From a virus: 64,000 nt of DNA. Below, in pieces: positions 13,845 through 52,923 of the stretch. Under the pieces are notes generated by a model. That model made no database searches, was not told where the DNA came from, and worked only from the letters and a program-made list of their open reading frames with translations. The DNA is taken from positions 1-64,000 of the IMG/VR virus record IMGVR_UViG_3300032087_006453; one strand, 5' to 3'. Numbering within the stretch: the first letter of the stretch is position 1; each line of letters opens with the position of its first letter. Made by a program: the position numbers and the translations under genes.

Positions 13845-13892
13845 CCTCCTTACATTCTCATCATACCATGCTTGGAGGAAATCTGCACTCAG
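13845..13892 (-). promoter_or_regulatory. Recurrent phage promoter cassette, copy 7
   Basis: GTGCAG, 17 bases ending ATGG, TATGAT, then TGTAAGGAGG. Drives 13499-13837 and the HD hydrolase. Confidence 0.75.
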
Positions 13893-15772: not shown

Positions 15773-15822
15773 CCTCCAAGTTTCTATACTGTTATACCAC
15801 ACATGAAAGGAAAACTACACCA
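15773..15822 (-). promoter_or_regulatory. Recurrent phage promoter cassette, copy 8
   Basis: GTGTAG, 18 bases ending TGTGG, TATAAC, and GGAGG 12 bases on. Lies at the 3' edge of the 15815-16213 gene. Confidence 0.55.
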
Positions 15823-16230: not shown

Positions 16231-16259
16231 ATCATACAAAGCTTTTGTCTGATTTACAA
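16231..16259 (-). promoter_or_regulatory. Recurrent-type promoter for 15815-16213
   Basis: TTGTAA, 17 bases, TATGAT on the minus strand, 17 bases before the start codon with GGAGG between. A hybrid between the housekeeping TTGACA and the phage KTGYAR -35. Confidence 0.6.
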
Positions 16260-18064: not shown

Positions 18065-18264
18065 GGTCTCTCAACAATCTTAAGCTCATTTAGCATGACG
18101 AGTTGAGTTCTGCCGTCGTCCCACTTTACCTCTGCCTTCAGAGTGCTTGCGGGCACACCGCCTACAAACCACGAATCAGTTTCGGTAATTGCAACCTTCT
18201 TCACAGTTCCAACGCGTGTCATGTTTGACCAATGGCAAACTCGATCTTTTTCTCTTGGAGTCAT
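18061..18264 (-). CDS. 67-residue protein, unknown
   Basis: Overlaps the next start by 4 bases (ATGA). Beta-rich small protein (TVKKVAITETDSWFVGG, KAEVKWDDGRTQLV). A GTATAA-17-TACAAT promoter-like sequence lies just upstream. No known family. Confidence 0.55.
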   Translation of the reverse strand: MTPREKDRVCHWSNMTRVGTVKKVAITETDSWFVGGVPASTLKAEVKWDDGRTQLVMLNELKIVERP

Positions 18265-18310
18265 TTATCACCTCAAGTGATTGTAACTAGCAAACAGGCA
18301 GTTTATACTC

Positions 18311-19781: not shown

Positions 19782-20111
19782 TCATAGTCCTGTTGATGTT
19801 TGTAGATCCCATGGACCGTAGTGCTCGTACTCAAGGGCACGTCTCAACATTTCATCATAATCGTATTCATGAATGTTGTCAAGATATTCTATTCTTCCAA
19901 GCGCGTAATACACAGGCGCAGGCATTCTAAGGTCTCTTCCATTCGACTTGTCAATGACCGTGTCACCGTCTAGAACAAATGCGTGGCCATACGATATGCC
20001 CTCAATGTCACCCTGCCCCATGACCTCTGCGTGAATCAACTTCAGCCCAGAACCAGGTCCTTCGCTGAGCATGTATTGGAATGCAGCTTCGTAGCAATCG
20101 CCGAGTTTCAT
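19782..20111 (-). CDS. Small papain-like-fold candidate
   Basis: 109 residues. KLGDCYEAAF places a Cys at the start of a helix, YGHAFVLDGDTVIDKSNG supplies His then Asp on strands, the order seen in small cysteine peptidase or transglutaminase folds. Its ATG overlaps the preceding stop (TGATG). The assignment rests on the C-H-D pattern only. It might be a peptidase or toxin-like internal protein. Confidence 0.5.
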   Translation of the reverse strand: MKLGDCYEAAFQYMLSEGPGSGLKLIHAEVMGQGDIEGISYGHAFVLDGDTVIDKSNGRDLRMPAPVYYALGRIEYLDNIHEYDYDEMLRRALEYEHYGPWDLQTSTGL

Positions 20112-20722
20112 CAGTCCTCCAACGTCACTAGCCTGTTCAAGCTAGCAAGCTTATAAGTTGCGTATTGTGACTTTGGCCCTGTCTTCACATACCTTTTGCT
20201 CAGGGGTGATTCGGTCCACGGAGTTTTCGATGGTAGATCCTCGCCAAAGTCGTAGACCGCAGTCTCCTGACCGCAATTGTCATCAGGCTCAGCGGTAAGC
20301 GAATTCGACGGGCTATCCATCTGAATTGCTTTCACATCTTTTCTTTTTCTCAGGTAGTATGACCAAACTTTCCTTGCATCTGGTGATACGCTGTACCTGT
20401 CTGCGATCAATCCTCCACCGTACTCGGTCGCATACTCCATCGCAACATCGTACAGTAGCGGACCCCAGCCTCTCGTGGCTTTGGCCGATGTTACTTCGAA
20501 CGCACCGCCGCATGGCAAGTCAGGCTTTGAAATTGCAATGCGTCCTTCCATGTCGTCAATATGGTCAAAGAACCTTTGTCCCTTTTCGTTTGAGTAGAAG
20601 ATTTCTACGTCATCGGGACCATCTGCGACAATAGTGACGTAGACATCAGCCTCTGGAAGGTCTCGTGGTTGCTTTGCTGCTTCGAACAGAAGCTCTCTCA
20701 CATATTCACGTAGAAGTTTCAT
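20111..20722 (-). CDS. Leader-tagged GNAT-like paralogue 1
   Basis: 203 residues. Leader MKLLREYVRELLFEAAKQP, cut predicted after LLFE. The body has beta strands (VYVTIVADG), CGGAFEVTSA, then RGWGPLLYDVAMEYAT, which resembles the acetyl-CoA loop (R-G-x-G) and helix of GNAT acetyltransferases, then ADRYSVSPDARKVWSYY and an SPLSKRY motif near the end. Four relatives lie in the next 5 kb. If GNAT, it would acetylate a host target; the catalytic site cannot be fixed by eye. Confidence 0.7.
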   Translation of the reverse strand: MKLLREYVRELLFEAAKQPRDLPEADVYVTIVADGPDDVEIFYSNEKGQRFFDHIDDMEGRIAISKPDLPCGGAFEVTSAKATRGWGPLLYDVAMEYATEYGGGLIADRYSVSPDARKVWSYYLRKRKDVKAIQMDSPSNSLTAEPDDNCGQETAVYDFGEDLPSKTPWTESPLSKRYVKTGPKSQYATYKLASLNRLVTLED

Positions 20723-21252
20723 CAGTAGTACACTGCCCCCGTTATGGTGACGTTAGGGTACTTCTCCGCCATCTTGTCTTTGAGATGCCCGATCTCCTCT
20801 CTCATCATTCTGCCAAACTGAACGTATCCTCCGTCTGGATCAACGTGCCGAGAAAAGAATTCGTCTATGAGTTTGCTAGCAACGCCCTTGCCACGAGAAT
20901 CGCTCCTTGTCTTTATGTAGTCGATGTACCATATCTGCTTTCCGGCGGTGGTCTTACCGTCAGCATGATAGTCTAGAAACCCGATGATGCAAACATTGGA
21001 GACACCAGGGATGAACTCACCTTTCCTAGGCTTCTTAAGCCTTTGGCCTCGCTTACCGTATCTTATCATCTTTTGGTAATCAACGAAATATGCATCATGG
21101 TGCTTGGGAGGTTCGGTGACTGAAGAGTCGCAGTAGGCCAAGCGCTTTACGTTGCCTCTGTATGCACGTGCATAAGGCAGAGGAGAGTCTAGTTCATGAA
21201 ACGAAACATCCTCTGTGATAAGTTCTCTTACGTATTCTCGAAGTAGATTCAT
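20722..21252 (-). CDS. Leader-tagged GNAT acetyltransferase
   Basis: 176 residues from ATG 21252. Leader MNLLREYVRELITEDVSF. The motif TRSDSRGKGVASKLIDEFF near 130 is a textbook GNAT motif A (R-x-x-G-x-A), preceded by IWYIDYIK on the beta-4 strand. It is a different GNAT subfamily from the neighbouring paralogues. Overlaps the previous stop by 4 bases. Likely packaged and active on host proteins or small molecules; substrate unknown. Confidence 0.75.
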   Translation of the reverse strand: MNLLREYVRELITEDVSFHELDSPLPYARAYRGNVKRLAYCDSSVTEPPKHHDAYFVDYQKMIRYGKRGQRLKKPRKGEFIPGVSNVCIIGFLDYHADGKTTAGKQIWYIDYIKTRSDSRGKGVASKLIDEFFSRHVDPDGGYVQFGRMMREEIGHLKDKMAEKYPNVTITGAVYY

Positions 21253-21923
21253 CCCACTCTCCGTTTCATATCGCCGACAAGCTTGCCAGCCTTCTTCAGG
21301 GCTCTGAGAGTTGTCGATTCGTTTCCTCGAGTCTTCGACCACATCTTGCTAAGCGGTGATCTCATCCATTTTTGACCCGGAAGTTGTTTTGTGAGGTCGG
21401 TGTCAGGGACCAGGTAGCCCTGATCGGACGACAATGAAGCCCGGGCAGATTGCTTTATTGATACGCCCTGATCGCAATTGTCTCGGTCAGTTGGAGTTAA
21501 CGTGTTCTTCAGATCGTCCAGCTGAGTGCTGACAACATCGGGGCGTTTATTCATGTAGTGTGTCCACACCTTTGCAGCGGAGTACGATACTTCCTCTCGG
21601 TCTGCGATGAGACCTGTGCCGTCCCTTGTTGCAAACTCCATCGCAAGATCGTAGAGCATAGGTCCCCAACCTGGCGCCGCACTAGACCATGCAACCATCC
21701 ATGCACCTTCGCACGGACCGTCTTCGTCGTCATCAACTATTTGAATCGTTCCGTAAATTTTGTCAACACCGGCCCTGAATGGCTTTCCTTGAGCATCGGT
21801 ATAGGAAATGTTCACGAGACCATCTTCAACTTCGAACTTGACGAACACGTCATCAGGTAGGTCGGCTGGGCCTTTTGCTGCTTCTGACAGAAGCTGTCTC
21901 ACATATTCACGTAGCAGTTTCAT
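21249..21923 (-). CDS. Leader-tagged GNAT-like paralogue 2
   Basis: 224 residues from ATG 21923; the longer frame to 21980 lies in the previous gene. Leader MKLLREYVRQLLSEAAKGP. Shares CEGAWMVAWSSA, PGWGPMLYDLAMEFAT, ADREEVSYSAAKVW and MRSPLSKMW with paralogue 1. About 20 residues longer, with an insertion before the SPLSK motif. Confidence 0.7.
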   Translation of the reverse strand: MKLLREYVRQLLSEAAKGPADLPDDVFVKFEVEDGLVNISYTDAQGKPFRAGVDKIYGTIQIVDDDEDGPCEGAWMVAWSSAAPGWGPMLYDLAMEFATRDGTGLIADREEVSYSAAKVWTHYMNKRPDVVSTQLDDLKNTLTPTDRDNCDQGVSIKQSARASLSSDQGYLVPDTDLTKQLPGQKWMRSPLSKMWSKTRGNESTTLRALKKAGKLVGDMKRRVG

Positions 21924-22498
21924 TCTATCAGCTTCCCCATTGACCGAAGCTTCTGGATCGTGTCTAGCTTCTTTGTCCACCTCTTGCTTAGTGGAGACTC
22001 ATGCCATTCGATGTCGGCCAGCTCTTCGCTTTTGTATGCCGAGGTCTGGCCGCAGTTGTCGTCGCGGGTAGGCGTGAGTGTGTTGTCCAGGTCGTCCATC
22101 TGAATTCCTGTTACGTCAGCCCTTTTCTCTGCGTAGTAATCCCAAACGTCTCTTGCACGCAGTGAGACACTGTTTCTTCCCGAAGCAAGACCGCCACCGA
22201 GCTGCGTCGCAAACTCCATCGCGACATCATACAGCAGTGGACCCCAGCCCTTAGCGGCTCCGGAGTCCAAGACAATGAATGCGCCACCGCAGGGTTCATC
22301 AGCTTCCTGTATTTCGATCAAGCCTCTAACCGGGTTTTGCTTTCCTTCGATGTAGTACCCCTCTTCGTCGGCGTAATAAATCTCGTATGTGCCCGCGTCT
22401 GTCAGATCAATTCTGACAAACACACCGTCAGGTAGATCTTCCGGACCTTTTGCTGCTTCCGACAGAAGCTGTCTCACATACTCTCGTAGAAGTTTCAT
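21920..22498 (-). CDS. Leader-tagged GNAT-like paralogue 3
   Basis: 192 residues. The leader is identical to paralogue 2 over MKLLREYVRQLLSEAAKG. Contains CGGAFIVLDSG, KGWGPLLYDVAMEFAT, SGRNSVSLRARDVWDYY and ESPLSKRW. Closest neighbour and probably a recent tandem duplicate of paralogue 2; start and stop overlap by 4 bases. Confidence 0.7.
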   Translation of the reverse strand: MKLLREYVRQLLSEAAKGPEDLPDGVFVRIDLTDAGTYEIYYADEEGYYIEGKQNPVRGLIEIQEADEPCGGAFIVLDSGAAKGWGPLLYDVAMEFATQLGGGLASGRNSVSLRARDVWDYYAEKRADVTGIQMDDLDNTLTPTRDDNCGQTSAYKSEELADIEWHESPLSKRWTKKLDTIQKLRSMGKLIE

Positions 22499-23799
22499 AG
22501 CTCTATCAGTCTCCCGGCATCCTTTAGTGCATTGATTGTTGCAGGCCGCTTCTTGAAGGTCTTGCTCGAAGAGGAATCATACCACGTCCGAGGGGTTTTG
22601 TCATCCGCCGAAACATCCTGATCACAGTCATCGTAATTACGATCAGGCGTTAGCTGCGGCCCGGGTATTCCGCTGTCAGGAAGTTTATCGAGTTGGCGCT
22701 TTGTCACATCTGGCCGATTGTCATTGTAGTAATCCCACACCCGCCTTGCATCTCTTGACACTGAAGATCTATCTGACATGAGACCTGAACCATCCATCGT
22801 CGCAACTTCCATTGCAACATCATAGAGAAGCGGTCCCCAACCGGGTGGCTGTGCACTGGCATACATAACCTCCCAGGATCCCTCACAGCCGTTCTTGCTC
22901 TTAAACATGATTATGTGCCCAGCGACGCTAGAGTCGTCGGCGTACTGCTCATAGCCAAATTCGTCTGAGTAAAATATCTTTATGAATTTGTCTCTTGCTA
23001 TGGCGATGTAGAGATCTTTTGACTCAAGGTCTTCGACATCTTTTGCTGCTTCGGTTAGAAGCTTTCTTACGTATTTACGAATGTGAGTTTCATTCTTTGT
23101 CTTGGTCTTCTTCTTCAGTTTTTCGAGATGGCTAGACCAGATCTTGTTCGCTGCTCTGAGATTCTTCTTTTTCTCTGGGTCCTTTGTTCTCTCGATTGCA
23201 ACCTTCCCTCTTTGAACCATGACTAGAGACGCCTGAACCTTATGGGCGTGTGTTCTATTGGCCTTGTTAACTGTTGCAACACCCTTTCGAGCTGTGGCAG
23301 CATCCTTGAACCCAAGACCCTTGATCGTTCCCTTTGGGTCTTCGTCAGTGTAGAGGTCGGAATGCTTGGAACTTTTGCGGCGCTGGCCTTTCTTCCTTGG
23401 CTTCCTGGTTGCTTCGCTAACTCGCGGAGACCTTCTCATGCCGCCAAACTCAGGATCATCAACGAATCCGTTGCGAGCATACCAACTCTCGAGACCTTCC
23501 GAGTCGATCGTCGCCTGGGCAAACGGTGTTGGGTCGAGCGACATGACGACGTCATTTTCGTCTGCTAAGCTGACAAGCCTTCCCAACACTTGAGAGGCAA
23601 ACCCCTTGCCCTCACATTCACCCGCTGGTCGCGTCTGGATTGAACTGATGTGGATTGTATCATCGAATATCGAAATGTCCGTAAGCACTAAGCAGTGCTC
23701 TCCGTTTGATTTACCCATGTAGAAGTATCGTTCCCGAGGATCCATGGGATTCTGGGTTGACATCTTCTCATATTGTTCGATGTACCTTTCGAGACTCAT
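22495..23799 (-). CDS. Polyprotein-like: GNAT + basic domain + GNAT-like paralogue 4
   Basis: 434 residues from ATG 23799. Residues 1-125: a GNAT domain with ECEGKGFASQVLGRLV (R/Q-x-x-G-x-A region). Residues 130-235: a very basic Lys/Arg/His part (TRKPRKKGQRRKSSKHSDLY, then DPKGTIKGLGF and HAHKVQASLVM), a conserved type of phage basic domain. Residues 237-434: an internal copy of the leader, THIRKYVRKLLTEAAKD, followed by the same GNAT-like body as paralogues 1-3. Two possible prohead-protease sites (after VSE at 129 and LLTE at 250) would release three pieces. A leader is missing at the N-terminus. Confidence 0.72.
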   Translation of the reverse strand: MSLERYIEQYEKMSTQNPMDPRERYFYMGKSNGEHCLVLTDISIFDDTIHISSIQTRPAGECEGKGFASQVLGRLVSLADENDVVMSLDPTPFAQATIDSEGLESWYARNGFVDDPEFGGMRRSPRVSEATRKPRKKGQRRKSSKHSDLYTDEDPKGTIKGLGFKDAATARKGVATVNKANRTHAHKVQASLVMVQRGKVAIERTKDPEKKKNLRAANKIWSSHLEKLKKKTKTKNETHIRKYVRKLLTEAAKDVEDLESKDLYIAIARDKFIKIFYSDEFGYEQYADDSSVAGHIIMFKSKNGCEGSWEVMYASAQPPGWGPLLYDVAMEVATMDGSGLMSDRSSVSRDARRVWDYYNDNRPDVTKRQLDKLPDSGIPGPQLTPDRNYDDCDQDVSADDKTPRTWYDSSSSKTFKKRPATINALKDAGRLIEL

Positions 23800-24362
23800 T
23801 CCCCTGCAGCTCCCGCTGACTTCTCCTGCCACTCTGCTGACTGTTCATCCTCATCAATCGGGCCACCCGCAGCGTACGTGTCACAAGACCTTGCGCTGTG
23901 GCACTTGAAGTGATGCATCCAGCAATAGCCAAACCCAAGAAAGAAGTCATCGCCCTCGGGAAGATCTGGAAAGGATTCGCGTGGCTCCTTCAAAAGCTGA
24001 GCATTGACAATGTCAATCGTCGACATGTCCTCGGGATCGACTTGCTCATCAGATATCGGCATGCATTTCTGCATTCGCTTCGAAACATCGAAGGCAACAC
24101 AGTTGCCGCACCTCATTCCCCTTGCCTCTTCTGGCGTCGCTCCTTCCCACTTTTCAGCCATGCTCTCCCAGTATCCGTCGCTCGGCTGCAATGGGTTCAT
24201 TGGACCGTAGGCGTGATTCTTTCTGGTGAGGTTTCTATTCTTGGTGTTTACCTTAACGTCCTGCGTTGCAACGGGGCACTCGAGGTCTTCGACCTGCTCG
24301 TTTATGATTGACAGCGCTCGGTTAATTGTTTCCTTGAGATATTCTAGTCTTTTATGTTTCAT
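23796..24362 (-). CDS. Cys-rich, possible metal or Fe-S protein with leader-like start
   Basis: 188 residues. The N-terminal helix (RLEYLKETINRALSIINEQ) could be a leader with a cut after IINE. The C-terminal half holds CGNCVAF, then a Cys near 95, and GYCWMHHFKCHSARSCDTY, a pattern close to high-potential iron-sulfur or small zinc proteins. Acidic Ala/Gly tail. Coupled by ATGA to both neighbours. Confidence 0.6.
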   Translation of the reverse strand: MKHKRLEYLKETINRALSIINEQVEDLECPVATQDVKVNTKNRNLTRKNHAYGPMNPLQPSDGYWESMAEKWEGATPEEARGMRCGNCVAFDVSKRMQKCMPISDEQVDPEDMSTIDIVNAQLLKEPRESFPDLPEGDDFFLGFGYCWMHHFKCHSARSCDTYAAGGPIDEDEQSAEWQEKSAGAAGE

Positions 24363-25165
24363 CTTTCTACCACGCTAATGATTTGAATTGGTGTTGCAAT
24401 GTACTCATTCCACAGTGAGGTTCTAACGTTACCGTCACAGGTGTCTAGTTCGTAGCAAATGTTATTGACATCTCTTCCGGGATACTCTAGTCTAAGTAGA
24501 TTGCAGGCTCGCCTTCCGTTATCGACTGCTAACGATTTTACATCGCTTCTGAATCCTGCTCTGACGTTGCCCAAGAGTTTGACGATGAGATATGATTCCG
24601 GATCGAAGTACTCACGTTCGGCAACTGTGAACGTTGAAATGTCAAACTCCCTACCTTCATCTATCGCACGCTCGATGTTCTCAAGTCCGGCCGGAGACGT
24701 GTAGTGCATCAGCTCTCTGACATTATTCAGAGATCCGTACATCTGAATTGTGTATGCATCGTCGAGAAGAACGAAGGGTTCCAGATCCCCTCTGCTGTAA
24801 AAGAAACCGAAGCGAAGAGTGTTGATGTCTGGGAAGAATCTTGAGTAGTCTTCCTGAAAGCTCCAGAACCTGTGATTAACAAAGTCCTCAACAAAGTCCA
24901 GCACGTTCTTTCTCGTCAGTAACTCATATCGAGGAACCTCGACGTCTAGCTGGTACGAGAAGTATCGCCTAACCAGATTCTCAACTTCTTCGCCGGCGAT
25001 CTCTCCACCTCGAGTATCCATACCAAGTTCTTGCAGTTCAAGCATCTGGTTTACAAAGTCTTCCCACTCGCTCAGCAGAAAGAATGAAGACTCAGGCTTA
25101 ATGTAGCCTCTAACTTCGAACTGTTCGTGAAGAACTCCCTGTATGTATTCGCGCAGTAGTTTCAT
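24359..25165 (-). CDS. Leader-tagged ADP-ribosyltransferase-like protein
   Basis: 268 residues. Leader MKLLREYIQGVLHEQFEV. The C-terminal part has the order expected for an ADP-ribosyltransferase fold: LMHYTSPAGLENI (H/R-containing first motif), DISTFT near 170 (S-T-S-like), and WNEYIATPIQIISVV near the end, where the Glu would be the catalytic residue. The usual first Glu of ExE is replaced by Trp, so either this is a divergent H-Y-E-type enzyme or the call is wrong. In T4 the packaged Alt protein is also an ADP-ribosyltransferase carrying such a leader, which makes the match attractive. Confidence 0.5.
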   Translation of the reverse strand: MKLLREYIQGVLHEQFEVRGYIKPESSFFLLSEWEDFVNQMLELQELGMDTRGGEIAGEEVENLVRRYFSYQLDVEVPRYELLTRKNVLDFVEDFVNHRFWSFQEDYSRFFPDINTLRFGFFYSRGDLEPFVLLDDAYTIQMYGSLNNVRELMHYTSPAGLENIERAIDEGREFDISTFTVAEREYFDPESYLIVKLLGNVRAGFRSDVKSLAVDNGRRACNLLRLEYPGRDVNNICYELDTCDGNVRTSLWNEYIATPIQIISVVER

Positions 25166-25758
25166 TTTTCTACTAACCTTCCGGCAGAACGAAGCCGATC
25201 TATCGTTGTTGGTTCTTTGGTGTATCTTCTGCTAGATGAAGAATCGAACCACTTGTCACCGGTCTTATCTCTCACAGACGATGCCTGCTTGCAATCATCG
25301 TCAGCTGTATCAGGAGTTAGCTGCGGACCATCAATTGGTTCTCCAACAAGCTTGTCGAGCTGGTGTGATTGAACATCGGGCCTGATATTCATGTAGTAGT
25401 CCCAAACTCTGCGAGCGTCTTGAGATACGCCGACCCTATCTGATGTGAGACCGCCGCCGTTCATCGTCGCATATTCGATTGCAACGTCGTAGAGAAGCGG
25501 TCCCCAACCTTTTCTGGCCTTTGCAAAATCCACTTGCCATGCATCGTCGCAATTGCCAGTCTTCTCAGTTGGTTTTGTGATGAAGACCCCTGTGCCGAAG
25601 TCGTCTGAACGGTTTCTTCCCGTGCTGTCGCTATAGTACACGGAGACGTCGTCAATGTCACTAGATATCGTAACATAGGCGTCATTAGCAACCAGGTCGT
25701 CAACGTCCTTTGCTGCCTCTGATAGCAATTGTCTCACGTACTCGCGCAGTAAATTCAT
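25162..25758 (-). CDS. Leader-tagged GNAT-like paralogue 5
   Basis: 198 residues. Leader MNLLREYVRQLLSEAAKDVDD. CDDAWQVDFAKA, KGWGPLLYDVAIEYAT, SDRVGVSQDARRVWDYY and a DSSSSRRY tail align with the C-terminal domain of the 22495-23799 protein more than with the others (shared DSSSS instead of SPLSK). Confidence 0.7.
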   Translation of the reverse strand: MNLLREYVRQLLSEAAKDVDDLVANDAYVTISSDIDDVSVYYSDSTGRNRSDDFGTGVFITKPTEKTGNCDDAWQVDFAKARKGWGPLLYDVAIEYATMNGGGLTSDRVGVSQDARRVWDYYMNIRPDVQSHQLDKLVGEPIDGPQLTPDTADDDCKQASSVRDKTGDKWFDSSSSRRYTKEPTTIDRLRSAGRLVEK

Positions 25759-29647: not shown

Positions 29648-29695
29648 CCTCCAAGCATATTAGTATTATAGCATGCCAGCGCCGAATCTACACTA
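29648..29695 (-). promoter_or_regulatory. Recurrent phage promoter cassette, copy 9 (uvdE)
   Basis: GTGTAG, 17 bases ending TGC, TATAAT (29665-29670), then GGAGG. Has the best -10 of the set. Confidence 0.72.
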
Positions 29696-29697
29696 GA

Positions 29698-30588
29698 TCA
29701 AAACAGCAGATCTCGCTTGTCTCCCCAATCTCGGTATGAGTCGGTTCGATCAAATATGGTTGTGTCGGTCAGACCAGGTTCTTTCCCAACATTCCACATC
29801 CAGTGATTCTCTTCCGGTCGATTCTTGGGAATGTACTTCCAAACCTTTGCATCGTAGTTTCCGACCGTAGGGAATGGAGGGAAGTTGTGCTTCTTTTCCA
29901 TTTGAGCAAAAGCTAGAGGATCAGAATCTACGGAAGCAACCCCTAGTTCGCCTGCCTTGAGGTTTCTCGAAACTGCAATTGCGTGATGCTCTGAATCCTG
30001 CCATCCAATCTGCAATGCTCGGCCTAGAACGCCGGTTGAAATGGCAAACCAAACGTGACCAGGATCCCCGTACGCCTCTCGGATGTTTTCGACGACTCGA
30101 ACAGCACAGGCTGTGACAAGCTCATGTCGAAGTCCGAGTGGAATAAATGCAGCACCACGTTCCTCCGCCCACTTCTTTGCGTAGCTGTTAAGGTTTGGCA
30201 TGGCAGCAATTCGAACGAATCGAACCTCTGCACCTCTCTCAATGCAGACCGCCTGATGATGCGAGATCTTCTTGGAGGCCGGCATGAACAGAACAACCTT
30301 CTTGTTGTAACGTCCAGCTGCTTCAACGATAGAAGGTCCTGCCAGACCGAAGCGAGGCTGAACGTATACGATCGTGTCTTCCTTCGTCGAAGCCATCAGC
30401 ATGTCTGCAAATCGGCATTTCGATCCGACCATGTGATCATCGCGAACAACATTTACGCCTTCGTGCCGAGTGACAATCGGAAGTCCGTAAGGATCGATCC
30501 ATCCTTCGGTCATTGCCAACCACTCTTCCTTTGATCGAAGCTGAAGGTCTTTGTTGATTCCATCAAGTACATGCTTATCGTGTGCCAT
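29698..30588 (-). CDS. Fold-II PLP enzyme-like protein
   Basis: 296 residues. MVGSKCRFADMLMAS near 50 mirrors the GNK-x-RK lysine site of ACC deaminase/D-cysteine desulfhydrase enzymes; QPRFGLAGPSIVEAAG takes the place of the SNT/GNH substrate loop, FMPASKKISHHQ follows, and AISTGVLGRALQIGW is the phosphate loop. The C-terminal 50 residues are Trp/Asn-rich and unlike known enzymes. Its ATG overlaps the previous stop (TAATG). It is coupled to two genes of unknown chemistry; a role in making or attaching an amino-acid group to DNA is a hypothesis. Confidence 0.65.
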   Translation of the reverse strand: MAHDKHVLDGINKDLQLRSKEEWLAMTEGWIDPYGLPIVTRHEGVNVVRDDHMVGSKCRFADMLMASTKEDTIVYVQPRFGLAGPSIVEAAGRYNKKVVLFMPASKKISHHQAVCIERGAEVRFVRIAAMPNLNSYAKKWAEERGAAFIPLGLRHELVTACAVRVVENIREAYGDPGHVWFAISTGVLGRALQIGWQDSEHHAIAVSRNLKAGELGVASVDSDPLAFAQMEKKHNFPPFPTVGNYDAKVWKYIPKNRPEENHWMWNVGKEPGLTDTTIFDRTDSYRDWGDKRDLLF

Positions 30589-36030: not shown

Positions 36031-36228
36031 CTAAGCAAGCTTAAAGCCTTCCACAATCAAAGGCTTATCGTTAACTAAAACAATGTATCTTGTATCTTGA
36101 TTGCCCGAAAGTCGATCGAGGACTAAGCCAGGTTGATCAGCACGGACTTTGAAATAATAAGGATCGTTTTCATCTTTTACAAGGTAAAATCCTTTTGAAA
36201 CTATTTTTAGTTGCCCTGGTTCATACAT
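36031..36228 (-). CDS. 65-residue protein, unknown
   Basis: Small beta-rich protein (YLVKDENDPYYFKVRADQPG). Its start overlaps the previous stop by 8 bases. No family recognised. Confidence 0.55.
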   Translation of the reverse strand: MYEPGQLKIVSKGFYLVKDENDPYYFKVRADQPGLVLDRLSGNQDTRYIVLVNDKPLIVEGFKLA

Positions 36229-36544
36229 CCGTTTCCTTTTCCCCTGATGCCTTCACTGCCTCTGTTCTTTCCACTGGTGAGATAGTCTTGCTTTCAGTTT
36301 TGGTGACAGCCTTGGTCACTGCCTTCGGCTTTGCAGCTCTGGGCTTTCTCGTGGTCCTAGGCTTTGGTTTCGGCTTTGGCTTTGGCGGGTTGAGGATTGC
36401 ATCAACCGCTGCCTCCTCTGGGGGATTGACGCCCTTCGCTTCGCACCACTCGCAAACCTCTTTATACGAAGAAAAATTTCGTCGGACAAAAGACTTTAGA
36501 TCAATCTTTCTCCGCCTAGAAAAGAAATCCCAACTCAAATTCAT
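36221..36544 (-). CDS. Pro/Lys-rich protein, unknown
   Basis: 107 residues. The N-terminal 45 are helical with two cysteines (CEWCEAKG). Then comes a KPKPKPKPR repeat and a Lys/Ala/Thr-rich tail like histone or Alu-type linkers. Probably binds DNA or links domains. Overlaps the next ATG by 4 bases. Confidence 0.6.
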   Translation of the reverse strand: MNLSWDFFSRRRKIDLKSFVRRNFSSYKEVCEWCEAKGVNPPEEAAVDAILNPPKPKPKPKPRTTRKPRAAKPKAVTKAVTKTESKTISPVERTEAVKASGEKETDV

Positions 36545-36822
36545 GCTTCACCTCTGGTAATCTGCAGTTCCCTGACTTCCATAGAAACCTCGACCTTCAT
36601 GAGATCCAAAACACTCTTAACAATCTCATCGTCGTATTTGCCTCTAAGATCTTTTCTAACGTGTGCCGTGAGTTCGTTGAGCGAAGAACCTGAAAAAGAC
36701 ATTAGACTTTTATCAAGATCCTTCACAACCCTGGCTGCCGAGTCTTCGTCCCAGCCACAGACTTCTAGAAGCGAAGTCTGCGCTCGGACTGAGGCAATTC
36801 TATCTGTCAGGAAAGTAAACAT
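36541..36822 (-). CDS. 93-residue helical protein, unknown
   Basis: Start taken at ATG 36822, just after GAGGAA and an ATATTTATT element; the longer frame upstream is unsupported. All-helical, acidic N-terminus. Last gene of the small group reading on from the sigma genes. Confidence 0.55.
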   Translation of the reverse strand: MFTFLTDRIASVRAQTSLLEVCGWDEDSAARVVKDLDKSLMSFSGSSLNELTAHVRKDLRGKYDDEIVKSVLDLMKVEVSMEVRELQITRGEA

Positions 36823-36826
36823 TTCC

Positions 36827-37099
36827 TCAATAAATATCACGAAGCATGGCAATCATGCTTTCCTGAAACCTTGGGTCTTTTGCAATCACCTTGGGGTCGT
36901 TGCCAAGCTCTTCAGAGAATGCGTCGCAAAGTGGCTGAGCGATCTTCTCTAGAGCCCTCAGACAAACATTCCTTGCAGTGGAATGATTCATCTTGTCCCC
37001 AGATTCCGTCATGCGCTCAGCAATTTCACGATACCCAATTCCGTCAGGAGCCTTTGAGCCGTATCCGTGATCAAACTTCTTTCCGTTAGGCATTCCCAT
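36827..37099 (-). CDS. Sigma region 4.2-like helix-turn-helix protein
   Basis: 90 residues from ATG 37099 after GAGGAACAAG, overlapping the end of the sigma gene by 14 bases in a different frame. GIGYREIAERM then MNHSTARNVCLRALEKIA matches the helix-turn-helix of sigma region 4.2 (L-E-E-I-G-x-x-x...R-x-R-x-x-x-x-x-A-L-x-K-L) that reads the -35 box. The upstream sigma gene ends just before this domain should begin. Either the sigma works as two polypeptides or a frameshift joins them. Its open frame extends upstream to 37174, leaving room for a shift. Confidence 0.65.
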   Translation of the reverse strand: MGMPNGKKFDHGYGSKAPDGIGYREIAERMTESGDKMNHSTARNVCLRALEKIAQPLCDAFSEELGNDPKVIAKDPRFQESMIAMLRDIY

Positions 37100-37817
37100 C
37101 TTGTTCCTCCAGATACTTTCGGTCACTTTCATCAGGTTCAATTCCGAAGCGCATGCGAAGCACTGCCTCTTCACGAGGAGACAAGCTTCGAAGTGCGTCT
37201 CGAATTATTGACTGCATCTTTGAATTGTCGATGGCATCGGATGGATCGATCATGTTCTCGTCGGGAATTACTTCGCCAAGCTTACGAGAACCCTCTTCAG
37301 ATCCAACCTCTGCATCCAAGGAAACAAATCCGTGATGCATAGAACGAACACGGCGAAGGAGCTTCACACTGACGTCCAGTGCATCCGCCAACTCCTCCGC
37401 CGTTGGAAGAATACCGAATTCTTCCTCGTACTCTTTCTCGTACTCGTTCGCTTTCCATGCAATCAACCGAAGGTGAGACGGAATCCTTACGTCGGTTTTG
37501 TGGTTTCCAATGTGCTTAAGCACAGCTTGACGAATCCACCAGCAGGCGTATGTTGAAAACTTGAAGCCCCTGGTATGATCGAAACGATCGACCGCTTTCA
37601 TCAAGCCAATGTTCGATTCCTGAATGAGGTCTTCAAAATCAGCACCACGATTCTGATACTTCTTGGCAATAGAAACCGCCAACCGAAGATTTGCTGAAAC
37701 CATCTGGTCTCGTGCTGACTTATCGCCTGCCTTAATCCTCTTAGCTAGTTCTACTTCCTCTTCCCTCGTCAGTAGTTTGTGACTGCCAACATTGCTGAAA
37801 TAAGAGGATAAACTCAT
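37086..37817 (-). CDS. RNA polymerase sigma factor (sigma70 family) lacking region 4.2
   Basis: 243 residues from ATG 37817, overlapping the previous stop by 4 bases. Region 1.2/2: LLTREEEVELAKRIKAGD, MVSANLRLAVSIAKKY, DLIQESNIGLMKAVDRFD and FSTYACWWIRQAVLKHI. Region 3: IPSHLRL and GILPTAEELADALDVS. Region 4.1: LRSLSPREEAVLRMRFGIEPDE, then the protein ends at EEQDGNA where the -35-binding helix-turn-helix would follow. That helix-turn-helix is found in the next gene. It probably directs polymerase to phage promoters. Confidence 0.9.
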   Translation of the reverse strand: MSLSSYFSNVGSHKLLTREEEVELAKRIKAGDKSARDQMVSANLRLAVSIAKKYQNRGADFEDLIQESNIGLMKAVDRFDHTRGFKFSTYACWWIRQAVLKHIGNHKTDVRIPSHLRLIAWKANEYEKEYEEEFGILPTAEELADALDVSVKLLRRVRSMHHGFVSLDAEVGSEEGSRKLGEVIPDENMIDPSDAIDNSKMQSIIRDALRSLSPREEAVLRMRFGIEPDESDRKYLEEQDGNA

Positions 37818-38050
37818 GCTGCTCCCTTTCTGTTTGAGATCCACTGTTGATGTGCCTTTCGTCGATTCTCGCGAATCTCAATCTCTCGATAGAGATAGCA
37901 AGCATTCAACTCCAGCTCATGACGAACCTTAGGATCCTTCGTGCGACCAATGACTCGGCGAATGCCACTGAGCATGTTGCGAAGAACACTCTCATCCATC
38001 ACAGCCAGGTCATATGTGTTGAGTGGCAAAGACTTGTTACGCAATTCCAA
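37814..38050 (-). CDS. 78-residue basic helical protein, unknown
   Basis: ATG at 38050. Helical, Arg-rich (MLSGIRRVIGRTKDPKVRHELEL). Coupled to the sigma gene by ATGA, so it may be an accessory to transcription. No family recognised. Confidence 0.6.
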   Translation of the reverse strand: MELRNKSLPLNTYDLAVMDESVLRNMLSGIRRVIGRTKDPKVRHELELNACYLYREIEIRENRRKAHQQWISNRKGAA

Positions 38051-38086
38051 CCTCGACTTACTTTAATGTAGTCACGTGTTTTCAAA

Positions 38087-38108
38087 AGTGAACGGCTGTC
38101 CGCTCACT
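38087..38108. terminator. Hairpin with T-run, possible terminator or attenuator
   Basis: AGTGAACGG/CCGCTCACT with a 4-base loop and one mismatch. TTTTTTA follows on the plus strand, TTTTG on the minus strand. On the minus strand it lies between promoter copy 10 and the sigma operon, so it may attenuate transcription. Confidence 0.45.
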
Positions 38109-38113
38109 TTTTT

Positions 38114-38155
38114 ATTGTATCACAAGGATGTTGAATTTACACTCAGATTTCTGTT
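38114..38155 (-). promoter_or_regulatory. Recurrent phage promoter cassette, copy 10 (sigma operon)
   Basis: GTGTAA, 17 bases ending TGA, TACAAT. Lies between groEL and the sigma operon, overlapping the groEL stop. The phage sigma may control its own operon this way. Confidence 0.6.
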
Positions 38156-39741
38156 TCGTCAGAAATCATTGCTGCACCAACGGAAAGGAAGTTCACCGAA
38201 ACCGAGACAGCATTCTCGAGTGCTGATGTGGCAACAAGGGTAGGATCGATGATTCCTGACTCCACCATGTTGCAGTACTGCTCGTTTCGAGCATCATAGC
38301 CGTATTCAGCGTTTCTTGAACGTAGAACCTTCTGAATCACGATATCAGGAACTCCACCAGCATTTTCAATGATCTGCCTCAGCGGAGCCGTGCATGCACG
38401 AGAAACAACCTCTGCTCCCACTCGAAAGCTTCCGGAACTGTTCTTGGGAACCTTTAGACCCTTCGATGCCTTTGCCAAAGCTGACCCACCGCCTGGAAGA
38501 ATTCCTGAAACAACCGCGGCGCGTGTTGCGTGTAGTGCATCATCAACACGGTCCTTTCTTTCCTGGAGTTCTATCTGAGTGCTTCCGCCCACTCGAAGAA
38601 CACAGATTCCTGAAGACAGTCGTCTTACTCTACGAAGTAGGACCGCCTTGTGTTCATCTGAAATGCTTGGATCTTCTGTTTGGGACTTTAGTTCAGAAAT
38701 CCTTTCATCAACTTCACTATCGTCAGTACTCGTTCCGATGAAGATACTTCTGCGTCGATGAACGACAACCTTTGAACATGTTCCTAAATCCTCGATCGAA
38801 GCATCCTTTAGATCATCGATGTCCGCAGCTCCAAACACCCGGGTTCCCAAAAGGAATGCAAGGTCATCAAGTGCGTTCACTCTTCCTTGCCCGAACTCCG
38901 GAGATGCAATTGCACAAACCTTCAGAACATTCTTCATCCTGTTCAAAACTAGCATCTGAAGTGCTTCACCTTCAATGCCGTCTGCCACAATTAGAAGTGG
39001 CGAGGAAGATGAGTGAATCTTTTCAAGGATAGGAACGATTTCCTGAAGCGTTTCAATGGTCTTGTTTACAATGAGGATCCTAGGGTTCTCGAGTGTACAC
39101 GTCATCCTCTGCTGATCATCGGCAAAGTAAGGAGACAAATATCCACGATCGATCTCGGTACCATCAATGACCTCTAGAGAACTCTTGAATCCCCTGGCCT
39201 CTTCGACGGTAACGGGTCCATCCGGACCTACCGCCTCGATTGCTTCGACAATGATCTTGGAAATGTCCTCCTCACCGTTGGCGCTGATGAGAGCAACGTT
39301 TGAGATTTGATCGTCGTCGCCAACAGGGGTTGACATGTTCTGAAGGGAATCATTGATCTTCGAATGTGCCCATATCATTCCCCTTTTGAGATCAGCATAA
39401 TCGTAGCCAGCCTCGAGTGCTCGCATTCCCTCATTGCAGAGTGCTTGAGCCAAGACGGTTGCTGTGGTTGTTCCGTCTCCGGCAACTTCCGCAGTTCTCC
39501 CCGCAGCCTCCTTGACAAGCTGAACTCCCAAGTCTGGGTACTGATCTCTTAGGTTCAATGCCTTTGCAACAGTCACGCCGTCCTTTGTCAGAATAGGAGG
39601 ACCGTGATCCTGCTCGATTACAACGTTCCGACCACGAGGACCCATGGTCACTCGTACTGCACCTGCTAGCACGTTAATGCCATCCAGCATCTTTCTTCGT
39701 GCTGAGACATCGAACTCAACGACGCGATCTTGTCTAGACAT
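38143..39741 (-). CDS. groL: GroEL-type chaperonin
   Basis: 532 residues. Equatorial ATP site: RVTMGPRGRNVV, KDGVTVAKAL and VAGDGTTTATVLAQAL; ALHATRAAVVSGILPGGGSAL carries the catalytic Asp region; the C-terminal domain is complete but lacks the GGM tail. Apical domain (GYLSPYFADDQQR, LIVADGIEGEAL) is present. No GroES gene is seen here, as in some jumbo phages whose GroEL works without a co-chaperonin. Probably folds phage structural proteins. Confidence 0.95.
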   Translation of the reverse strand: MSRQDRVVEFDVSARRKMLDGINVLAGAVRVTMGPRGRNVVIEQDHGPPILTKDGVTVAKALNLRDQYPDLGVQLVKEAAGRTAEVAGDGTTTATVLAQALCNEGMRALEAGYDYADLKRGMIWAHSKINDSLQNMSTPVGDDDQISNVALISANGEEDISKIIVEAIEAVGPDGPVTVEEARGFKSSLEVIDGTEIDRGYLSPYFADDQQRMTCTLENPRILIVNKTIETLQEIVPILEKIHSSSSPLLIVADGIEGEALQMLVLNRMKNVLKVCAIASPEFGQGRVNALDDLAFLLGTRVFGAADIDDLKDASIEDLGTCSKVVVHRRRSIFIGTSTDDSEVDERISELKSQTEDPSISDEHKAVLLRRVRRLSSGICVLRVGGSTQIELQERKDRVDDALHATRAAVVSGILPGGGSALAKASKGLKVPKNSSGSFRVGAEVVSRACTAPLRQIIENAGGVPDIVIQKVLRSRNAEYGYDARNEQYCNMVESGIIDPTLVATSALENAVSVSVNFLSVGAAMISDETEI

Positions 39742-39926
39742 TATCCCCTCAGGACTTGCTTAGTCTCTGTAACGGATTCAATAACCGTAATGACACGGCG
39801 ATCGCCGGTAACAACGTTCTGAGCGACGTGGAGATCTCCAGCCTTAACGGCAATCTCGTTCTCAGAAAGAATGCCCTTCGCACGAAGGTCGCGCTGGACA
39901 ATGTCATTTAGAGGTTGTTCAATCAT
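39741..39926 (-). CDS. 61-residue protein, unknown
   Basis: Stop overlaps the groEL start by one base. Beta-rich at its end (RRVITVIESVTETKQVLRG). It is not GroES, whose mobile-loop and barrel motifs are absent, but its coupling to groEL is worth noting. Confidence 0.55.
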   Translation of the reverse strand: MIEQPLNDIVQRDLRAKGILSENEIAVKAGDLHVAQNVVTGDRRVITVIESVTETKQVLRG

Positions 39927-40728
39927 TTATAACTCCTTTGAATGTTGTAGTATACTTGGTCCAAGCGGTATTGTTTACCATAGACCAAAATCCAAGGTCA
40001 CGAAAAGCATTGCGCAGTGAATCCCAGTTGGCACTCCCATGGCTAACTTCGACATCTGCTTCGTTGAGATGTTCAAACTGAATCAGCTCTCGATTAAGGG
40101 CGTACTTCTCGTTTCCATTTTTGTCAGAAAGAAACTGTTGAAGTTTCTCTGGTGAGTCGAGAAGCTTGAGAGCAGTCTTGTTACCCACTCCCTTGAAGCC
40201 CTCAATATTATCTGAATGATCGCCAACGAGAGCTTTCCATCCAACATAATCGCTGCAAGGAGGTTCTCGAAACTTCTTTGCAACCGGATTGTACAGCTCG
40301 CAACGAGGATCCTGGTTCAGCAGCTGAAGAAAGTCAGTGTCGCTTGAAACAATGACTCTGCGATCCCAATCACCAGAAAGAGCGTAGTGACCAATGACAT
40401 CATCAGCTTCTCGCTCAGGGTGCCGTACAACCTCGATTGGCATACTCTGCAACAGCTCTAGAATCTTCTTGCGCTGCTCACCGTAGTTGTCTGAAGAATC
40501 AAAGACTCGGGTTGCCTTGTAACCTTCGTGAGCCTGCAGTCTCTTAACTGGCCGGCCTTCGAGAGCTAGGACAATCTTTGATGGACTGAACTTCTCAACG
40601 AGAGGTCGAAGAGACCTGAAGAACGCGTAGACAATTGCATTGTCCCTGTCTCCCAAGTTTCTCCTGCTGGAGAAACGGGCTCGTTGCATAAGGTTTGCTC
40701 CATCAAGCAGCAGTATCGTCTTGTTCAT
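39919..40728 (-). CDS. 5'-3' exonuclease (flap endonuclease family), copy A
   Basis: 269 residues from ATG 40728. LLLDGANLMQRARF (first Asp), EREADDVIGHYAL near 107 and VSSDTDFLQLL near 128 (acidic metal cluster), then GDHSDNIEGFKGVGNKTALKLL near 175 (Asp pair plus helix-hairpin-helix). Matches T4 RNase H/T5 exonuclease-type enzymes that remove RNA primers. A second copy lies at 61970-62914 and the two are divergent. Confidence 0.9.
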   Translation of the reverse strand: MNKTILLLDGANLMQRARFSSRRNLGDRDNAIVYAFFRSLRPLVEKFSPSKIVLALEGRPVKRLQAHEGYKATRVFDSSDNYGEQRKKILELLQSMPIEVVRHPEREADDVIGHYALSGDWDRRVIVSSDTDFLQLLNQDPRCELYNPVAKKFREPPCSDYVGWKALVGDHSDNIEGFKGVGNKTALKLLDSPEKLQQFLSDKNGNEKYALNRELIQFEHLNEADVEVSHGSANWDSLRNAFRDLGFWSMVNNTAWTKYTTTFKGVIND

Positions 40729-41056
40729 GGTCACTCACATCAGACATTGGTTCACGCTTCTTAATATCACGGCCAAAGTACTTTTGTTCAAGTCTTTTTG
40801 CCTGCGCAATAGTCTTATCGATCTTGACCATTGCTTCGTGAGTGATCGTCTCCTGTGCTGCTTCGATGCCAGTAAAGTACTCTTCCTTTTCTGGATCCAG
40901 CTCGTAGTCTTCTCCGGTCGGAGATCGAACTACGTAAGAAATCATCTTGCCCTCAAGTGTCTCACGAACAATCTTTTCTGCGACCTTGATCGGCATCAGC
41001 TGTTCATTGCCACCTCGAGCAGTAACTCTGACATACGCAATATCACCTACGTTCAT
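40703..41056 (-). CDS. 117-residue protein, unknown
   Basis: ATG 41056 chosen over an upstream TTG. MNVGDIAYVRVTARGGN begins a small beta barrel; the second half is helical and acidic at the end (DVSDHEQDDTAA). Overlaps the exonuclease start. Confidence 0.55.
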   Translation of the reverse strand: MNVGDIAYVRVTARGGNEQLMPIKVAEKIVRETLEGKMISYVVRSPTGEDYELDPEKEEYFTGIEAAQETITHEAMVKIDKTIAQAKRLEQKYFGRDIKKREPMSDVSDHEQDDTAA

Positions 41057-41065: not shown

Positions 41066-41296
41066 CTACTTCTTGAAACCTGGACCGAGAAATCCCTTGG
41101 TTCCGCCAGGGCCATGAGACGTGGGTCCAGGGTTGTTCGAACTCTTGAATCCTGGGCCTGCAAATCCAAAAGCATCAGAAAGGCTCTTGGACTTCTGAAG
41201 CCTAGAAATCTCAAACTGTGCGGAACTGTCTCCACGTTGATTAAGCGAGCGAACTATTTCCTGTCGGATTACGCTGCGTAGATCGAATTTTGACAT
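41066..41296 (-). CDS. 76-residue Gly/Pro-rich protein with leader-like start
   Basis: MSKFDLRSVIRQEIVRSLNQ is leader-like; the rest is disordered with four repeats of (A/L)GPGFK (FAGPGFKS, FLGPGFKK). Overlaps the next gene by 28 bases. Might be an internal or linker protein. ATG 41296 follows GGAGATGAAAC. Confidence 0.55.
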   Translation of the reverse strand: MSKFDLRSVIRQEIVRSLNQRGDSSAQFEISRLQKSKSLSDAFGFAGPGFKSSNNPGPTSHGPGGTKGFLGPGFKK

Positions 41297-42063
41297 GTTT
41301 CATCTCCATCAATACTTTCTAGAATCACCGTGTAACTGGGATTCTTGGACTCCCACATTGCAACCTTGTTGTTGATTGCGTCAACCTTCTTCGAGAATCG
41401 AATCAACTCACGATCAATGACGCCGCCGGTCTTTTCCGCCTTAGCCGGCGATTCATTGGCCAAGCGGTCGTTCAGTTCAGTAAGCCTGTTCACATGCTTC
41501 TTGCGAACCGAGTTTAGTTCGTTTTCGTACTGTGAAATGAACGTGTCTCTTCGGTCGATGATTTCACCCATCAGAACATTGCACTTCTTCATTGCGGTAT
41601 GCTTCTTCATGCGAACACGCCCTCGAGCACCCGGAGACTCTGCGTGAAAGTCTTCTCGCTTGAGACCCTCAAAGTGAAGCACAGCAAAGTTCTCAAAGTG
41701 ATCATCGGCAATAACGTACAGAAAATCGACGCCTTCTTCGTTTCCTTCGAAAGTCATTGAATCAGATTGGAAGCTAAGAGCTCCGGAACGGTGGCGAGTT
41801 GTGAGCTTGCACTCAAGGTTCTTGCCAATCTCAGGAATGACGATGTCTGGTTCGCCGGTCTTTCCGTTACTGTATGCATTCGGAAAGTTGGCCTGAATCT
41901 GCTCAGCAAAGTAGAACTCTTGCGGACCAGACATGAGAATATTTCTACGACCCAAGTCTTCCTCAACGTTCATGCCAGAACAAGAGTAGACGTCCCTGAG
42001 AGACTTGTAGAAATGCTTCATGCTTCGGATTGCGTTCTCTGCTTGACTTCGACTGATATACAT
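41269..42063 (-). CDS. PD-(D/E)XK nuclease-like protein
   Basis: 264 residues from ATG 42063 after GGAGGTTTG. GEPDIVIPEIGKNLECKLTTR near 77-97 gives the D-x(n)-E-x-K catalytic core of the restriction-endonuclease fold, preceded by FYFAEQIQANFPNAYS. The C-terminal half is a long coiled coil (SVRKKHVNRLTELNDRLA). Resembles phage nucleases related to type II restriction enzymes; host DNA breakdown is a plausible role, with phage DNA protected by modification. Confidence 0.7.
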   Translation of the reverse strand: MYISRSQAENAIRSMKHFYKSLRDVYSCSGMNVEEDLGRRNILMSGPQEFYFAEQIQANFPNAYSNGKTGEPDIVIPEIGKNLECKLTTRHRSGALSFQSDSMTFEGNEEGVDFLYVIADDHFENFAVLHFEGLKREDFHAESPGARGRVRMKKHTAMKKCNVLMGEIIDRRDTFISQYENELNSVRKKHVNRLTELNDRLANESPAKAEKTGGVIDRELIRFSKKVDAINNKVAMWESKNPSYTVILESIDGDETCQNSIYAA

Positions 42064-42078
42064 CAAACCTCCAGTATG

Positions 42079-42107
42079 AGTATAACTGTCACGGACCCAG
42101 TTTACAA
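42079..42107 (-). promoter_or_regulatory. Recurrent-type promoter for the nuclease gene
   Basis: TTGTAA, 17 bases, TATACT, then GGAGG. The -35 lies immediately after the stop codon of 42108-42458. Confidence 0.6.
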
Positions 42108-51742: not shown

Positions 51743-52008
51743 GACTTTCCCTCAATGTGGTTTTGCCAGGCGCCGAGATACGCAACGGCATCTAGCAGAT
51801 TATCTTCCTTGAAATTGTAAGACTGGCGGCTTAGCTTTAGAGCAACGAGTGCAATGTACATATCATGACTAGTCATTTGCTTTCCGGACATACCCGAAGC
51901 AATCATTGCTGCTCGCTGCATACCCTCGCTAAACGGTCCGTACTCTCGCTCCTTTTCCTCGGAACGTTGGTTGACAATTTCATTTGCCTTTTCTAGAATG
52001 TTAGACAT
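51739..52008 (-). CDS. Small helical protein, MazG/DUF6378-like
   Basis: 89 residues, all-helical, with YGPFSEGMQRAAMIAS and KLSRQSYNFKEDNLLDAVAYLG. The E-D-N-x-x-D-A pattern recalls all-alpha nucleotide pyrophosphohydrolases. It lies between dUTPase and the hydroxymethylase-like gene, the place where a dCTP/dUTP-clearing enzyme would make sense. Function unproven. Confidence 0.6.
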   Translation of the reverse strand: MSNILEKANEIVNQRSEEKEREYGPFSEGMQRAAMIASGMSGKQMTSHDMYIALVALKLSRQSYNFKEDNLLDAVAYLGAWQNHIEGKS

Positions 52009-52879
52009 AGATTAGCTCCATTTTTTCTTCGGTCCAACTGTTAATCTCTTCCTTGGTAAGCTTGTAGTATGGTAGATTCACGTGCATTCGTTGTAGCCCT
52101 TCGAGAGTTAGCGAATCACGAAGCGTGTACTTCACTAGGTCTGGATACGGAACGCTATCGGGATGATTGGCTCCGTAGTTTGCAACAATCTTGTCCATCA
52201 TTGCAAAGTGAGATTCGTAAATGTGGAACGAACCTGCCGAATGATAGTAGTGTCCTAGCTCAATCTTATCTCCGGAAACTCTCGCATTGAGCTCGTTGAG
52301 CATCAGTTGCTGATACATGCAGAACGTAAACACATCATTGCAGAAACCGAAGACTGCATCATTGGACCTCATGTGAACGCCTAGGTGCAGCTTGTTGTCT
52401 CGGATGAAGAAATGAATGTACTGCGTGCAAGGATAATCCTTGTTGTTCTTTCCCTTGTGCTGGTATCCGTTGATGGTAATGCTTGCGCGACGAGTATCAC
52501 GATCCCGAATCAACTCATCACGAACCCACTCCCACTGATTTAGCCCGGTCCTCTCGTTGATGTTTCCGTGAATCCAAACTCCGTAGTTTGACTCAACCCT
52601 GTTTTCTTCATCAGCAATGTCTCGCCAAATCTTTGCAAGCTTACCGATGTTGCTTACATCCGGATTGTGCGACAAATACCACAGCCATTCTGTAACTGCA
52701 TATGAAGGCCGAAACTTTCGGGCAGGAACTTCAATAGAAAGAGCTGTTGGATCTTCGATCATCATTGAGTGCCAAAGGATCTCTCTCTGCTTCGAACCTC
52801 TGGAGTTTACGATCGAACCCTTGCTTAGCAGTTTCAGAGATTCAACAAAAGCTTCGTTTAGATTCTTGTAAGTTTGCAT
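52001..52879 (-). CDS. Deoxynucleotide hydroxymethylase, T4 gp42-like (ThyA fold)
   Basis: 292 residues. ThyA fold: DTRRASITI, catalytic DYPCTQYIHFFIRD and GSFHIYESHF. In thymidylate synthase the segment R-S-x-D-x-x-x-G-x-P-F-N ends in an Asn that recognises dUMP; here it reads MRSNDAVFGFCNDVF, with Asp at that place. T4 dCMP hydroxymethylase has the same MRSND, VFGF and ND arrangement and uses the Asp to recognise cytosine. A second dTMP-forming enzyme is not needed because ThyX is present. Predicted product is 5-hydroxymethyl-dCMP; dUMP hydroxymethylation is the alternative. Confidence 0.8.
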   Translation of the reverse strand: MQTYKNLNEAFVESLKLLSKGSIVNSRGSKQREILWHSMMIEDPTALSIEVPARKFRPSYAVTEWLWYLSHNPDVSNIGKLAKIWRDIADEENRVESNYGVWIHGNINERTGLNQWEWVRDELIRDRDTRRASITINGYQHKGKNNKDYPCTQYIHFFIRDNKLHLGVHMRSNDAVFGFCNDVFTFCMYQQLMLNELNARVSGDKIELGHYYHSAGSFHIYESHFAMMDKIVANYGANHPDSVPYPDLVKYTLRDSLTLEGLQRMHVNLPYYKLTKEEINSWTEEKMELIYV

Positions 52880-52894: not shown

Positions 52895-52923
52895 ATTATA
52901 CGTTCGGCTTTTGGCTTTTACAT
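52895..52923 (-). promoter_or_regulatory. Recurrent-type promoter for the hydroxymethylase operon
   Basis: ATGTAA, 17 bases, TATAAT, then AAAGGAAG before the ATG. The -35 contains the TAA stop of the polymerase gene. Confidence 0.6.

Follow-up and report, generated by a model that had tools for sequence, protein, structure and literature searches.

Sigma factors are single chains in bacteria and most phages, and domain 4 of the sigma factor is regarded as one folding unit. The locus studied here lies in a window of 64,000 nucleotides, part of a 70,003-base IMG/VR virus record, and it raises the question of how a sigma factor can work when its gene stops in the middle of that unit. A sequence-only reading of the window had noticed a sigma gene ending after region 4.1, with a helix-turn-helix resembling region 4.2 in an overlapping gene of another frame, and had left two options, namely two subunits that form one sigma or a frameshift that fuses them. 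Our analysis, which is wholly computational and holds no expression, binding or transcription data, points to a two-subunit sigma as the probable answer, cut inside domain 4 and with the -35-reading helices carried by the small partner, here called P2.

The sigma subunit is encoded on the minus strand at 37086-37817 and contains 243 amino acids, comprising regions 1.2, 2, 3 and 4.1 followed by a short tail, without region 4.2. The Pfam models of regions 1.2, 2 and 3 are matched by the window protein, as they are by all 21 sigmas of our alignment (A4), in which the C-terminal tails were also aligned. The Sigma70_r4 model is matched at positions 1-18 of 50 only, and the chain stops shortly after this partial match, leaving no complete region 4 in one chain. 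The coordinates given in the sequence-only reading are correct. The P2 gene follows on the same strand (36827-37099) and encodes 90 amino acids, with an extended-turn helix-turn-helix (YREIAERM...GDKMNHSTARN...ALEKIA) and conserved C-terminal helices bearing a DPRFQ motif. The helix-turn-helix does lie in an overlapping gene of another frame, as had been described; the overlap with sigma covers 14 nt (37086-37099, minus strand), and a ribosome-binding site, GGAGG (37106-37110, minus strand), stands six bases ahead of the P2 ATG.

The first matter to settle is whether the split is genuine. Relatives of P2 were collected from viral contigs through successive searches giving 4, 25 and 90 loci (80 kept), and a scan of genome contigs added two; the resulting 82 loci (L031-L112) were inspected with profile models. 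A truncated sigma stands directly upstream of P2 in 78 of the 82. In two others (L064 and L065) the sigma is found about 0.5 kb upstream of P2, one (L112) carries sigma and P2 in one reading frame as a natural fusion, and the last (L087) has no sigma near P2 nor elsewhere on its 38.6-kb fragment. A later scan with a divergent P2 group yielded 16 loci, two contigs of them already among the 82, and the sigma/P2 split was present in all 16. Every P2-bearing locus that was read is thus split, except for the fusion L112 and the sigma-less fragment L087, and because the arrangement recurs in this manner, the sequencing or base error that might have undone the first reading is excluded. Purifying selection is likewise observed. 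Against the relative L001, the window P2 has a dN of 0.046 and a dS of 1.71, which marks it as a real gene, and the sigma has a dN of 0.045 and a dS of 1.23. The split arrangement is common to dozens of uncultured phages. A tblastn search with five P2 queries against 50,697 named phage records gave no match at E <= 1, and therefore no isolate carrying P2 is known here.

A second matter is whether the two genes are joined during translation. A programmed frameshift or readthrough would yield a fused sigma-P2 chain, and the window taken alone lends itself to this idea, given its overlapping genes, the open frame upstream of the P2 start and the one-chain version present in L112. The relatives speak against it. 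Across 65 distinct split loci, the window included, the frame of P2 relative to sigma is 0 in 7, +1 in 29 and +2 in 29, so that the relative frame is not conserved as it would be in a programmed frameshift gene, and the search for a frameshift site was dropped on account of this variability. Relative to the sigma stop, P2 begins anywhere between 23 bases ahead of it and 26 bases past it. In 53 of the 65 loci P2 has a Shine-Dalgarno-like stretch before it, and in 25 its frame is already closed 3 nt or less upstream of the start. The last count also bears on the shared open frame that the sequence-only reading had pointed out ahead of P2. This frame is indeed open in the window, with a GTG 75 nt back and the stop 105 nt back, but its openness is a chance feature, since so many relatives lack it. 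Reading frames also intervene between the halves. GIY-YIG homing endonuclease genes with NUMOD motifs lie there in L184 (1851-2474) and L194 (1788-2477), L184 having an additional short frame besides the endonuclease, and L064 has a different 0.5-kb frame, in which no homing endonuclease was found, with the same coordinates in L065. With variable frames, Shine-Dalgarno-like stretches of their own, closed frames and intervening genes, sigma and P2 are observed to be separate cistrons with independent translation signals; the frameshift option finds no support, and we regard it as hardly credible.

The fusion itself is informative. L112 encodes a 357-amino-acid protein in a single frame, in which the sigma regions and 4.1 are followed by a linker of roughly 25 residues and then by the P2 domain, and was the one fused gene met with when relatives were read for such a version. 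Its contig, 158 kb long, was binned with a Flavobacteriales genome and also carries a phage portal gene. In a quick tree L112 clusters with the split relatives L110 and L111, with long branches that include its own. L112 establishes that both parts can act from one chain; whether it is ancestral or re-fused is not shown.

What P2 is cannot be read from family matches. The window P2 has no fitting family in Pfam or PHROGs. Among 21 P2 proteins, three matched the Pfam model Sigma70_r4_2 (best E 0.085) and one matched a PHROG named RNA polymerase sigma factor (E 0.0023). A sequence search of the PDB gave nothing convincing, the top row being the spore germination protein 4o8w (E 0.013) in the C-terminal helices. 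A comparison of the P2 profile with canonical phage sigma region 4 by hhalign gave no match (Prob 1.9), and a direct alignment of the P2 helix-turn-helix with the canonical one was marginal, with a z of 2.2 and 9 of 200 shuffles equally good. Compared with the canonical motif, the P2 helix-turn-helix has a turn lengthened by about five residues, and the most conserved run of the protein, GDKMNHSTxRN, is at the predicted turn and the beginning of the long helix. Predicted alone, P2 folds with fair confidence (pLDDT 79) and has no clear match among solved folds, the best being the DosR helix-turn-helix at Z 3.8.

The outcome is different when P2 is predicted together with the end of sigma. A proxy chain was composed of sigma residues 191-239 followed by P2, with 36 further aligned rows including the natural fusion L112, and the sigma tails in this alignment (A8) were cut after the FPIT stretch. 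The joined model (pLDDT 85, pTM 0.77) has helices at 2-19, 24-34 and 40-49 in the sigma part and at 72-81 and 88-109 in the P2 part. Sigma domain 4 chains come out on top in the structural comparison, with related LuxR-type helix-turn-helix proteins among them. The model matches AlgU at Z 8.7 (1.3 A over 73 residues), region 4 of sigmaE on -35 DNA at Z 7.8 (1.4 A, 69 of 69 residues) and region 4 of Taq sigmaA at Z 7.2, Z values of about 8 not being exclusive. Foldseek returned no row at E <= 0.001 for the joined model, and a sigmaA region 4 chimera ranked first. P2 is thus predicted to fold as a complete sigma domain 4 when joined to the sigma end, with the reservations that the junction is artificial and the profile comparison negative. 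Because the chain is artificial, compatibility of the two parts is shown and not their association. A structure prediction had been named beforehand as able to refute the sigma-domain assignment; P2 alone gives no clear match, and P2 with the sigma end is modelled as domain 4. Together with the conserved gene pair and the one-chain fusion, the joined model supports the two-subunit option.

These results leave room for a P2 that acts as a separate DNA-binding co-activator, replacing region 4.2 in function without completing domain 4, binding the GTGYAA box described below on its own and recruiting the truncated sigma as an activator does at an extended -10 promoter. Such a role would suit the missing profile similarity to canonical 4.2, a helix-turn-helix contained whole within P2 and lengthened in its turn, and the TG-like stretch found before the -10 element in many of the promoters. 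It would also have a precedent in T4 gp33, which, as far as the available part of the source goes, stands in for sigma4 without sigma homology (PMC2988020). It fits poorly with the superposition of all four domain-4 helices of the joined model at 1.3-1.4 A, with the presence of both parts in one chain in one phage, and with a box placed at normal -35 spacing. We consider this co-activator role rather unlikely, and the two-subunit sigma with a composite domain 4, inferred as that domain is, remains the preferred explanation.

Motif discovery in window sequence upstream of -10-like hexamers that precede genes gave a recurring TGTAAA box, 16 bases ahead of the -10. The site ahead of the sigma operon, TGTAAA-N16-TACAAT (38114-38141), was recovered by a matrix trained without it. 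The same motif is found upstream of an RNA-ligase-like gene (12243-12270), of the gene at 15815-16213 (16231-16258), of a UvdE-type endonuclease gene (29665-29692), of the gene at 41269-42066 (42079-42106) and of a thymidylate synthase gene (52895-52922), and with one mismatch at 12964-12991, upstream of 13499-13837 (13860-13887) and upstream of 18061-18264 (18280-18307), all on the minus strand. The window contains 16 copies of TGTARA-N16-TAYRMT, at most one mismatch allowed, where 1.78 would be expected, a count that is not independent since the same sequence had supplied the pattern; 11 of the 16 sites lie within the 5% of positions immediately upstream of genes. The canonical pattern TTGACA-N17-TATAAT shows no enrichment in the window, with 50 sites against an expectation of 45, a de novo k-mer search upstream of genes was uninformative, and a simple promoter and terminator scan of 37900-38300 found no sigma70-type site and no terminator.

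Out-of-sample support was sought ahead of 66 sigma genes, in the 600 bases upstream of each; 65 of the genes are split (the window included) and one is fused, with L064, L065 and L087 excluded. Each region stands for a different P2 sequence, yet relatedness is common among them, so that they do not count as independent trials. A matrix built from eight window sites, the sigma-operon site left out, scored at p < 0.05 in 36 of the 66 regions against shuffles of the same sequence. Scores of at least 14 were reached in 37 of the 66 operons versus none of 39 single-chain phage sigma genes, and 1 of 60 matrices with a permuted -35 scored as high as the true one. A plain and looser pattern, composed after the matrix outcome was known, was GTGYAA-N15-19-TANNNT, in which the fourth base of the -10 is not C and the fifth is A or C. 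It is present in 40 of the 66 operons (shuffled mean 1.4, largest 4), in none of the 39 single-chain sigma genes and on none of the 66 reverse strands, and TTGAC with the same type of -10 occurs in none of the 66 operons. Apart from the window's own row, the matrix and plain-pattern runs are out-of-sample tests. The pattern is missing in 26 of the 66 operons, including L110, L111 and L112, which have no significant matrix match either.

From 32 aligned sites the consensus of the box is (C)GTGYAA(A/T), with G frequent right before the -10. Read at a 17-base spacer the box becomes KTGTAA, with positions 4 and 5 as its main departures from TTGACA. In counts over whole records, the motif was in excess on the coding strand, relative to the reversed-pattern control, in G000, G001, G003, G012, G013 and G014; G005, G006, G008 and G010 showed no excess, and the results elsewhere were less clear. 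In a separate observation, an AT-rich subgroup (L090, L095, L098, L100, L101 and L109) has a longer recurring stretch of the type GCGTGTAATnATnATTGA ahead of sigma, which may be an operator or another form of the -35 element.

The promoter motif also bears on a further explanation, in which the sigma has lost -35 recognition and reads the -10 only, with P2 travelling along as an unrelated regulator, such as an anti-sigma or an antitermination factor. A sigma that by itself lacks region 4.2 and a P2 without a convincing family match would be in keeping with this. Such a loss is difficult to reconcile with a conserved box at the -35 position, with a fusion that puts P2 in the domain-4 position and with a joined chain modelled as sigma domain 4, and we hold it to be very unlikely.

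In the two-subunit sigma that we favour, the larger subunit (regions 1.2-4.1) would hold the RNA polymerase core and read the -10 element, and its share of domain 4 would be limited to the first two helices. P2 would supply the third and fourth, the recognition helix included. A working domain 4 would arise only when both chains associate, probably on the beta flap, and this composite head would read the -35-like (C)GTGYAA(A) box some 16-17 bp before an often extended -10. The physical association of sigma with P2 and the reading of the box by P2 are inferred. Since the sigma operon is itself preceded by such a promoter, autoregulation is probable, again by inference. It is also possible, though we put it forward with considerable doubt, that the cut is a regulatory device, in which the large subunit alone serves -10 and extended -10 promoters and a second holoenzyme, formed once P2 is added, recognises CGTGYAAA boxes. 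If so, promoter classes would be switched by the dose of a 90-residue half-domain.

The neighbourhood of the pair is partly shared among the relatives. A 78-amino-acid gene (37814-38050, minus strand) is probably the first gene of the sigma operon and has a relative in the flank of 33 of 67 split-sigma loci. The neighbour of the operon, a gene for a divergent phage chaperonin of the GroEL type (38143-39741, minus strand), has one in the flank of 58 of the 67. After P2 come a 93-amino-acid gene (36541-36822, minus strand), with relatives in 11 of the 67 loci, and a 107-amino-acid gene (36221-36544, minus strand), with relatives in 24 of the 67 by phmmer; a protein similar by eye to the latter product follows the fused gene in L112. 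Elsewhere the window encodes two unrelated thymidylate synthases, ThyX (Thy1) at 5975-6790 and one of other PHROG families at 52001-52879, as well as PALP-family pyridoxal-phosphate-dependent enzymes at 6799-7710 and 29698-30588, of which the second also matches a PHROG threonine dehydratase. It also encodes UvdE and a ribonucleotide reductase with an insertion domain of the B12-dependent type; these two and the PALP enzymes are possible host-metabolism genes. Two separate genes (39919-40734 and 61970-62914) match phrog_107, a phage exonuclease, and several adjacent genes at 20111-25758 share near-identical N-termini of type MKLLREYVRQLLSEA, which look like repeated leader or targeting segments. 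The Terminase_6N search matched in G001 alone.

Split sigmas are already known, and the window pair belongs to neither of the two kinds closest to it. T4 gp55 and gp33 are termed a split sigma, and resemble the pair in that the work of a phage sigma is divided, the core subunit being joined by a small partner that stands at the place of domain 4. According to the parts of the sources available (PMC2988020, PMC7892883), gp55 amounts to no more than a divergent sigma2 protein, gp33 shows no homology to sigma, is structurally unrelated to region 4 of sigma and lacks DNA binding of its own, and the two act via the sliding clamp. In the window, by contrast, the larger part keeps regions 1.2-4.1 and the small part is a helix-turn-helix; and where T4 late promoters have a -10-like element only, 40 of the 66 operons have a box at -35 spacing, the reader of which is inferred. 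SigO and RsoA of Bacillus subtilis likewise form one sigma out of two proteins, and the accessible text places their cut between the sigma2 and sigma4 domains (PMC8103513, PMC10141391), whereas the cut in the window falls within domain 4, where it separates the 4.1 helices from the 4.2 helix-turn-helix.

A further likeness, that of a phage-encoded sigma activity with a small partner, exists with SPO1, in which gp33 and gp34 make up a two-protein late factor; the available part of one source names gp28 and gp34 as SPO1 sigma factors (PMC9429907). Genes split by homing endonuclease insertions, namely nrdA of phage Aeh1 and gene 43 of phage 25 (PMC2988022, available in part), offer a parallel in which two cistrons re-form one enzyme, and the endonucleases between the halves of L184 and L194 recall phage genes split or invaded by such elements. 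Unlike in those genes, no homing endonuclease is present at the window junction, where the two genes overlap, and the cause of the split is not shown.

Single-chain phage sigmas (L113-L165, and the records S-CREM2, MaAM05, 2.275.O and SD25) are alike in regions 2-3 and the start of 4.1, and unlike the window they have 4.2 in the same chain; five from the phage collection served as controls, one of them an unverified fecal contig. In Vibrio phage vB_VpaS_SD25 (L199, PQ249004.1), a single-chain sigma annotated as hypothetical lies downstream of groEL and has, by eye, a lengthened turn in its 4.2 helix-turn-helix. These two traits make it a possible intact cousin of the split sigma. No sigma cut inside domain 4 was found in the literature searched, which left subscription journals mostly outside.

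The pair would add a further cutting plan to the known split sigmas, along with a predicted and directly testable promoter class for a group of so far uncultured phages. If the two-subunit sigma is true, a natural cut through domain 4 in many diverged phages would mean that the reader of the -35 can exist as a detachable subunit. It would also provide a defined system for studying the assembly of domain 4 on the beta flap, and a possible source of an orthogonal two-part promoter system.
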